Assembly: GCA_036898135.1 (NCBI GenBank)
Contig: CM072523.1
Span: 3,270,959 to 3,334,958, forward strand
DNA: 64,000 nucleotides
Direction: 5' to 3'
Source of the DNA: Oncomelania hupensis
Taxonomy: Eukaryota > Mollusca > Gastropoda > Littorinimorpha > Pomatiopsidae
The translations under genes were made by a program, and so were the position numbers. This document shows positions 10,901 through 19,336 of this stretch, one piece after another. Within the stretch, counting starts at the first letter, position 1. The number at the start of each line of letters is the position of its first letter. The notes under the pieces are model-generated. The model made no database searches and was not told where the DNA came from. It saw only the letters and a list, made by a program, of their open reading frames with translations.

Positions 10901-13900
10901 TCAGGCAGACTGCTTCTCTAACCTTAGCATTACATTACATTACATTATTATTGCTTTAGGTCCAGCGGACTCTTCCGAGCCAAATCAGGACCAGACAACC
11001 CCTGATCCGCATAAAAGATCTGCTGAAACAACCCTAGTGGTAAAACCGAAAGCTCTCCACCAGCCAGTCACTTTACAATAAAGACATCCCACGCAGGGGA
11101 CGGCTGAGGCTTCACCCCAACTTATCGAACCCCCGTTTACAAAAACAAAATAGAATACAAACATCATTATAAATTATCAACAAAACACATACATATAAAA
11201 TGCCTACATTGCTAAATAATAACATCATAGGAAGCCCTAGTGACCACCTGGCAGAAAGCCTCCAATATTCCCAAGCTGATCCAACAGACCTCATACACAA
11301 AAAGGAGTCTTGTCCCGGAATAGTTTTCAAGAAAAAAGGTAGGAGACTGGTCTCGCGAAGAAGACGATAGTATAGCAGATTGATAGAACAGAGCAGGAAT
11401 GAGAAAGAGCAAATGAGAAAGACAGCGACAGTGGGAATTTAAAGCACTAAATTTCCAGAAAGTGGGGATACTATTTATACTGAAACCCCCGGCACTCAAA
11501 CTCAAAGGTCTATTACAAAGCACCAACTCACGTCTTTCTGTTTGTACTCTGGCAGCATTTCTTGCACAGCATCGCTAAAGATGGACACGTAGCGACGCGT
11601 GTTCTCCACAATCGCATCACCAAGGTCAGGGTCATAGTCTTGAATATGGTCAAGGTCAATCACCAAGGATACTTGTTCCCGGTGTGCAAGTTTAGCCTTG
11701 AGAAAGAAAACAACAAATAAATCTGTGCAGGCCATTATATAATTTGAGCTTAACGCAGTATTTAATACAAGTTAATGTGGGCCATTGAGGTACACAGGTA
11801 TTATACTAATCCCATAACTCGAAGGTCGTTGGGGCACCACAGATTAGTGTTTAACCAGCGTACTCCATCTTTCTCTGTCCTCAGCAACTCTCATGGCTTC
11901 GCTCAGTCTCAAGCCAGTCCATTCCCTAATGTTGCCCTCCCACCTTTTTCTGCCTCCTTGCACCGTGCCTTGCAGGATGTTTATGATGAAAAGATGTGTG
12001 AATATACTAATGAGCATGTGACAAAAGGTCGTTTCCAATTTGGTTAAAAATGGTCAAAATTTTAAAAAAAAGCAAGCATTTTTATTGTTGGCATGTTGGA
12101 AGTGTGATGTCTTAGGCACATGTTAATATGTGTGAAAAGATACTTCGTGTCATATAAACAGAGTTTTAGGCATGTTTGTGCACAACAGCTTACTGGTGTT
12201 GGTTGTCGCAGCGGACATACTAAAATCATCAAAACAAGCTTAAAATAATTTAAAATAACCCTATAAACAGTCCAGAATATCACAAAATGAGTGACACAAA
12301 TAATATAACTATACATGTAAGAAAGAATATATTTACATGGTGTATTTTTTGTAATCAGAGTATGTCCACTGCGACAACCAACCGTCATTCACACACCATT
12401 ATTTAGTTTAAATTAAAATAACAACAAAAGGATGTTTCCAAATACTTTAATTTGTATTGTGATATCATTGCATACAACAGATTAACATAATTTCAGAAAG
12501 TTAGTTTCTCATTCATATCAAAACATCAATTCTGGTGTTGGTTGTGACCATTTTGTACAGTACACGGACATACTATTTCTATCAAAAGATGTTTAAATAA
12601 TATTAAAATCAAACAAGAAGAACATAAAAACAGCTTATGCCATTACCAATCAGTCCCTTTGTGGATAAAAAGAATGTAAACATTGATGATATAATAAAAC
12701 TGTGTTTAAAGAGATTTGGGTGTTGGTTGTGGCACCAACTCAATGGACATACTAATTTTGATCAATTGATTTTGCGACACTCACCCACTGAAAATAGTAT
12801 TTTAAAAAACTGCACCCGCATTATGGTTTAAAATTAGTAACATAAAATAATATATACATGTATGGATTATGACAAAATAAAAATTATTATTCTACTTCAC
12901 AGTAAGTTTGATACTTTCTGTAGTACATGCTATTTCAGCAAGAAACAATGGAGGTGACCTATAGCCTTAGGAGATTCCATGGGGCTGTGGCATGTAATTT
13001 GTCTGCTTTGAGATAATAAAGTTGTATTCGTTATGCACATAATCACAAAACGGAAGAATTAATTGCTAACAGTAAAATTAAAGAATCACTTCAGTTCATA
13101 AAACTGAACCCTCTGATTGCTAGCAGCAACATTCAGCTCAAGAGAGACCTTCCGTTTTAAAACATCAAAGGTCTCCCATGAGAAATCCTCAGTGGCCGGC
13201 CAACACCACATGTTGTTCTTAGACTTCATGAAGCTCAGCCGCACAAGCTGAACTTCAAAGTCTACATCTTTTATTTGAGCTACATAATCAAGCCCCTGCC
13301 AGTCAACAACAAAAAAATCATTGACACTAACATTGATGCAGCAAAAGGCTGTGTCTAATACATCGTCACCTTCATCTTCGACACTCACTTTGGGAGATTG
13401 GCAAATAGGCAATAGAGGTACAACGTGATTAGCTACCCAGTGTTCTTCTGTAACATCCTCTCTGTTTGTGCTCCAGAGAATGTAAAGAGAACATGCCTCC
13501 AAGTTCATGTATGGGGTAGGGGTGATGAGGCGGTTGTTTGTGCAATGGTAAATGCTCCAACCAAGCTCTGGGTAGACCGACTGAATAGGTTTATTTAGAA
13601 TATTGGATAGGGCTGCTATTTGCCACAGCCCCATAGACACTCCTAAGGCTGTAACTTCCATTGTTTCTTGCTGAAACTTGGTCTCTATGTCCGGCGAGTT
13701 TGAACTCACTTGGTCAGCAAGCTGATGTGCAACAGCGGTCCCACCAAAACCTTGGCCTTGGATGTATGTCTGGCTGTTACACACCATTTCGCACACAATG
13801 CGACATCTCATCTCAATGTGGTTCTCTTGATGTCCAAATGTTAAGACGCTGGCAGTTCTGGGCAAGCAGTTTCCATCTGCCTCCACACAGACGGGGTATA

Positions 13901-19336: not shown

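Follow-up and report, generated by a model that had tools for sequence, protein, structure and literature searches.

The gene examined here lies in a 64,000-nucleotide stretch of contig CM072523.1 of the gastropod Oncomelania hupensis (the window, to which all positions refer) and is surrounded by copies of a short two-part motif. This arrangement raises the question of whether the gene encodes the transposase of a DNA transposon and, if so, to which group such an element belongs. A preliminary description of the locus proposed a candidate undescribed transposon at 12195-18060 but found neither terminal inverted repeats nor a target-site duplication. As laid out below, the locus is very probably a 6,432-bp DNA transposon, the five-exon gene of which encodes its own predicted DDD transposase fused to an OTU domain, with the bipartite motif as the likely binding site of that enzyme.

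The limits of the element are defined by its other copies in the same genome (1.45 Gb in 428 contigs), an alignment that the preliminary description had recommended. Searches with the right arm and with a strict form of the motif identified at least three two-ended copies (the one in the window, C2 and C12) and one truncated copy, C16. The number of copies so recovered is low, which is a point against the transposon reading. The alignments of C2, C12 and C16 open at either 12010 or 12012, the former reflecting two bases shared by chance, and those of C2 and C12 both stop at 18443. Since the left base is common to all three and the right base to both of the two-ended copies, the element corresponds to 12012-18443, with its gene on the minus strand, rather than to the span first proposed. 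It is flanked by a target-site duplication, TAAT (12008-12011 and 18444-18447), and is bounded by imperfect inverted repeats of about 18 bp (GAGCAWGWGACAAAASGT): GAGCATGTGACAAAAGGT at the left end (12012-12029, plus strand) and GAGCAAGAGACAAAACGT, read inward on the minus strand, at the right end (18426-18443), with 15 of 18 bases matching. The ends begin with GAGCA, giving GA...TC termini. A 4-bp duplication flanks all three two-ended copies, as TAAT in the window and ATAT in both C2 and C12. The features missing from the preliminary description are thus both present, and both are characteristic of the DDE/D class: terminal inverted repeats (15/18, with C2 and C12 retaining both ends) and a duplication of fixed length (4 bp in 3/3 two-ended copies). 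The inverted repeats, the duplication and the motif were all examined in one genome, that of O. hupensis.

Indirect evidence for excision and reinsertion comes from the positions of the copies. The right arm (17170-18090) matches C2 and C12 over its full length at 98% identity, and the 300 bp on either side of C2 and C12 have no match but themselves among the sequences compared, which places these copies at unrelated sites; the locus has other copies in the genome, and a single-copy host gene is ruled out by them. Both C2 and C12 lack the sequence corresponding to 13065-15358 and 15953-16532 of the window, and an identical 12-bp filler is found at the first deletion junction in each. Since the junctions are shared at different sites, the deletion derivative arose once and then moved, and because a defective derivative needs an enzyme from elsewhere, this was presumably supplied by an intact copy. 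No second intact copy was found among C2, C12 and C16, the copies recovered by the right-arm and strict-motif searches. Between C2 and C12, 27 mismatches are counted over about 3.6 kb of aligned columns (0.8%), against roughly 60 between either of them and the window (57 and 61; 1.6-1.7%). In cut-and-paste elements, filler DNA is typically left at deletion junctions when gap repair after excision is interrupted, and the 12-bp filler fits this mode of transposition without proving it. The C16 copy retains the left 1.5 kb and is broken off at window base 13548, next to an apparent LINE reverse transcriptase sequence; no further piece of the element is present in the next 9.9 kb.

Several smaller repeats are associated with the copies. 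Nested insertions, each with its own duplication, occur in C2 (1,945 bp with an 8-bp duplication and 937 bp with a 6-bp duplication), C12 (674 bp, 6-bp duplication) and C16 (1,021 bp, 9-bp duplication; entries L016, L017 and L018). In the C2, C12 and C16 alignments, there also appears to be an inverted, 85%-similar short copy of coding sequence (13621-13676) at about 12930-13000, directly downstream of the stop codon and within the element. About 165 bp directly upstream of predicted exon 1 (17775-17938) recur at 85-87% in four further loci, two each on C173 and C5 (entries L012-L015, L019 and L020), which match this segment only and were not counted as copies. L019 and L020, when compared further, included no other part of the element, and this segment may be a promoter piece that was captured, or else a separate repeat.

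Next to the element lie exons of an MCM7-like gene that is read from the same strand. One, at 11523-11702, matches MCM7 (E 2e-19) and the Pfam family MCM_N, and an MCM_OB exon is located at 8847-9101. On the other side, the only matches of 18632-18889 are three MCM7 sequences, all of them weak (E 0.17-0.2), with no MCM match in Pfam; from this weak match, the first exon of the MCM7-like gene is likely to lie near 18670-18765. Since MCM7-like sequence is found on both sides, the element most likely resides in an early intron of that gene. This position argues against a host gene, whether domesticated or ancestral, with merely repetitive flanks, as do the matched ends, the duplications and the occurrence of deletion derivatives at other, unrelated loci. 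A stop-free open frame and homologues in several phyla would be expected of such a gene as well, but this explanation is highly improbable.

The gene itself is exactly as first described: five exons predicted from splice signals, with GT-AG introns and an open frame of 1,083 codons plus a stop. On the minus strand, exon 1 (17714-17735) contains the start codon, exons 2 (16803-17010) and 3 (16376-16587) encode a basic N-terminal region, exon 4 is at 16090-16237, and exon 5 (13086-15747) encodes the transposase core, the OTU domain and the stop codon. Pfam assigns no DNA-binding family to the first 306 residues (the best match, E 0.055, is to an unrelated family), so that a role in motif binding is proposed from their basic composition.

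A large protein set, searched three times (12, 39 and 16 proteins), yielded 52 different homologues from molluscs, echinoderms and hagfish as well as a brachiopod and a hemichordate; among the named sources are Littorina, Batillaria, Plakobranchus, Elysia, Lottia, Mytilus, Pecten, Mya, Lingula, Holothuria, Apostichopus, Diadema, Ptychodera and Myxine. The nearest are two unnamed proteins with 54% and 55% identity over the core. Alignment A2 has 36 rows, consisting of the window protein and 35 of the 52; left out were eleven fragments or very divergent proteins (P0011, P0021, P0023, P0034, P0037, P0040-P0042 and P0044-P0046) and the six found last (P0047-P0052). Some homologues have misleading public names (P0006, P0016, P0028, P0033 and P0043), such as '(S)-beta-bisabolene synthase', 'Vertnin' and 'Cc8l18.2-like protein'. 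Two bear the UniRef name Vertnin, a protein discussed in passages of PMC3024977, the likeness to which is known from the name alone. When viral contigs were scanned with A2, there were 32 pattern matches and no relatives.

The Asp-Asp-(Glu/Asp) arrangement and RNase-H fold suggested at the outset are borne out by alignment and modeling. The predicted catalytic domain comprises residues 429-619 (14481-15053, minus strand), and its model, made in line with the earlier suggestion to model residues 430-580, has a pLDDT of 91.5 and a predicted RNase-H fold resembling those of retroviral integrases, IstA and Mos1. The predicted catalytic residues are D448 (codon at 14994-14996; D in 36/36 rows), D532 (14742-14744; 35/36, one gap) and D572 (14622-14624; 34/36, two gaps), all on the minus strand and with zero substitutions in the 36 aligned members. 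A conserved acidic triad in a protein of this fold, here by prediction and alignment, is a further characteristic of the DDE/D class. The likeness to the retroviral integrase, IstA and Mos1 cores consists of the predicted fold and the order of the triad, whereas identity over the aligned core is only 6-14%, and the Oncomelania protein, unlike these, has extra Cys clusters around the triad. In Foldseek, no PDB match fell below E 0.001, the top rows being Argonaute-type proteins (best E 1.8e-3), and a single match to viral models, an RNase H, was under that threshold. VIA-align comparisons were made within the first 1000 chains from Foldseek, with the model over 400 residues, so that they cover the families on that list, from which other transposase families, such as Hermes, are missing. 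One search by sequence for relatives among solved structures gave a single match, a carbonic anhydrase (E 0.78), which was rejected; in another, matches to huntingtin (E 3e-4) and other unrelated solved chains were taken as composition effects.

Since C2 and C12, neither of which has an intact gene, were nonetheless copied to new sites, it might be supposed that the 1,083-residue protein is a passenger and that another, unseen transposase moves the ends. An integrase-like predicted fold with an unsubstituted acidic triad speaks against a passenger, and exon 5 aside, the open reading frames overlapping the element (counted as single frames, not spliced genes) do not exceed 117 aa. A passenger role is accordingly very unlikely, and the protein is treated here as the transposase.

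The C-terminal part of the protein is a predicted OTU cysteine protease (13410-13880, minus strand), as the preliminary description had held. The Pfam OTU match has an E of 3.6e-4 and 21.5 bits, compared with a curated cut-off of 23.3, and the model of this region matches A20, TRABID and OTUD3; by sequence, OTUD1 is matched among solved structures with E 0.23. The predicted nucleophile, C824 (codon at 13866-13868, minus strand), and histidine, H971 (13425-13427, minus strand), were assessed in A3, an alignment of 17 proteins picked as apparently reaching the C-terminus. Cysteine is found in 17/17 rows, one of which (P0038) covers only 6%, and histidine in 16/17, with one row uncovered. The OTU region is not displayed in alignment A1 by some homologues, such as P0002, P0008 and P0012. 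C-terminal to the OTU domain, at about 13128-13325, the model has a small all-strand domain that is conserved in some homologues.

The motif consists of a left half, GGTYGGTTGT, and a right half, GGACATAC. With up to one mismatch, the left half is found 17 times in the window, including 12 times inside 12012-18443 (shuffles: mean 7.4, largest 15); the one at 13532 falls in coding sequence and is probably due to chance. The right half has nine exact matches, eight of them inside the element (shuffles: 1.4, largest 5). When the two are combined (KGTYGGTYGT, a gap of 0-45 and GGACAWAC, with at most one mismatch per half), 14 matches are found, 11 inside the element and three in the other 57 kb, compared with a mean of 0.72 and at most two in 60 simulated windows. 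The three outside are all weak, with a mismatch in both halves. The motif is thus concentrated in the element, and the earlier statement that it occurs nowhere else in the window is nearly correct, the exceptions being these three weak pairs, five single left halves and one GGACATAC. The gap is 6 bases in 5/11 matches and 7, 14, 14, 20, 27 and 45 in the others.

Four bipartite motifs form a left subterminal array (12197-12752, at 12197 +, 12360 -, 12536 + and 12721 +), and seven matches form a right array around predicted exon 1 (17214-17864, at 17214 +, 17245 -, 17418 +, 17450 +, 17638 +, 17656 + and 17840 +), in which those at 17638 and 17656 have one right half in common. An isolated left half, GGTCGGTTGT, is found at 18052-18061 on the minus strand. 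Genome-wide, the strict pattern GGTYGGTTGT-N(0-30)-GGACATAC has ten exact matches, compared with two for a reversed control pattern, and nine of the ten are within four element loci. The motif is thus tied to the element, although with about 98% identity between the copies, the motifs in them do not count as independent observations. The tenth match (L021, C2:119342475) is a lone one, and similarity to the element was otherwise not found there.

Since the right array surrounds predicted exon 1 and the likely promoter, the motif might be a transcription-control array of the transposase promoter rather than an end-recognition site. Four of the motifs, however, lie on the side of the left inverted repeat, at the opposite (3') end of the gene, and C2 and C12 have lost most of the coding sequence but retain the motifs of both arrays. 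Control of the promoter as the role of the motif in place of end recognition is unlikely, though the two functions could coexist, and the motif is likely to be a binding site for the transposase.

The element was compared with known superfamilies by their signatures, as given in passages of the papers cited. Ginger1 elements are DDE/D transposons of invertebrates with a Gypsy-type integrase, often introns, and in most members a C-terminal OTU or Ulp1 domain; they have 4-bp duplications of CCGG or CCGT, inverted repeats of 40-270 bp and TGTNR ends (PMC2836005). The Oncomelania element has a predicted C-terminal OTU domain, predicted introns and a 4-bp duplication as well, but its duplications are TAAT or ATAT, its repeats about 18 bp and its ends start with GAGCA. 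The Gypsy-type integrase profile rve is absent from the Pfam matches of the 36 members up to E 1. In spite of the OTU domain, membership in Ginger1 was rejected for lack of rve and for the wrong duplication, ends and repeat length.

Kolobok is characterized by TTAA duplications and a C/DxxH motif between the second and third catalytic residues (PMC9587614). The Oncomelania element resembles it in its 4-bp duplication and purine-purine 5' end (GA...TC), but neither TTAA nor C/DxxH is a feature of the family; with duplications of TAAT, ATAT and ATAT, both Kolobok and piggyBac, which also duplicates TTAA (PMC9587614), were rejected. C/DxxH between the second and last catalytic residues is described for hAT, P, MuDR, Kolobok and Dada (PMC9587614, PMC10045372). 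These letters are found in 5/36 rows and in two places: directly after the second D in the window protein (CPTH) and P0002, where CxxQ or a similar string stands in the others, and further on in P0008, P0009 and P0025. Since they occur in merely five rows, they are not a family feature, although the window row has them, and the element fails this signature of all five superfamilies.

EnSpm/CACTA, Mirage, Chapaev and Transib have C(2)C and H(3-4)H between the second D and the last D/E (PMC12730594) and were rejected, with CxxC in 0/36 and H(3-4)H in 1/36 rows. Zisupton/KDZ, with duplications of 8 bp in Zisupton and 7 bp in two Kyakuja families (PMC12730594), was set aside on the 4-bp duplication, and IS481EU, with TG...CA ends (PMC10045372), on the GA...TC termini.

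The hAT elements deserve separate mention. A duplication of 8 bp is standard for hAT, and the Oncomelania element differs in its 4-bp duplication and in having no conserved C/DxxH. No BED finger, as in hAT, is found among the Pfam matches of the 36 members and the N-terminal region. The likeness is in the many short repeats within both ends: in hAT elements such as Hermes, an N-terminal domain binds short repeats inside both ends (PMC10368747). By analogy, the basic N-terminal region of the 1,083-residue protein may bind the subterminal repeats.

The comparison with Sola, Academ, Novosib, IS3EU, Zator, Merlin and Harbinger/ISL2EU was made through Pfam profiles, which may not exist for all of them, and gave no match. 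The element is a DDE/D DNA transposon that belongs to no named superfamily among those that can be tested by signature. The case for novelty is based on the failed signature tests and the literature listings, with Repbase and Dfam outside the comparison, and on these grounds the lineage is likely not yet described. Whether it amounts to an undescribed superfamily of animal DNA transposons is an evenly balanced matter; as such, it would be defined by a DDD transposase with Cys-cluster architecture, an OTU domain, GAGCA ends, 4-bp AT-rich duplications and arrays of the two-part motif, ranging from molluscs and brachiopods to echinoderms, hemichordates and hagfish. The main competing possibility is that the transposon is the same but its group already has a name in Repbase or Dfam, such as Sola, Academ or an unpublished class. 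Repbase had 24 DNA superfamilies when accessed in 2019, according to a passage of PMC12730594, several of them beyond those tested here, and with homologues common in marine animals, a curator may have met them. On the other hand, no Pfam transposase profile recurs among the 36 members up to E 1 (a weak match to Zn_Tnp_IS91, E 0.024, is confined to a single member), and among the literature matches listed, Ginger1 is the sole OTU-bearing DDE group and none with an OTU has these ends. An existing name is a prospect to be taken seriously, if a less than even one.

Taking the element as a transposon with its own transposase, the following mechanism can be envisaged. Through its basic N-terminal region, the protein would attach to the subterminal motif arrays and pair the two ends. 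The RNase-H core, its metal ions held by D448, D532 and D572, would cut the ends and join them to the target, and a 4-bp stagger at joining would lead to the 4-bp duplication. The OTU domain might strip ubiquitin off the transposase or host proteins and thereby avert degradation of the complex, while intact copies would mobilize in trans those with internal deletions.

If the superfamily is indeed undescribed, it would add one more lineage to the roughly two dozen superfamilies of eukaryotic DNA transposons, provide a classifier for many marine-invertebrate proteins now called uncharacterized, 'Vertnin' or 'bisabolene synthase', and make available for transposition assays an element that appears intact. 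The fusion of a transposase with an OTU domain opens to test the question of why several unrelated mobile elements have deubiquitinases.
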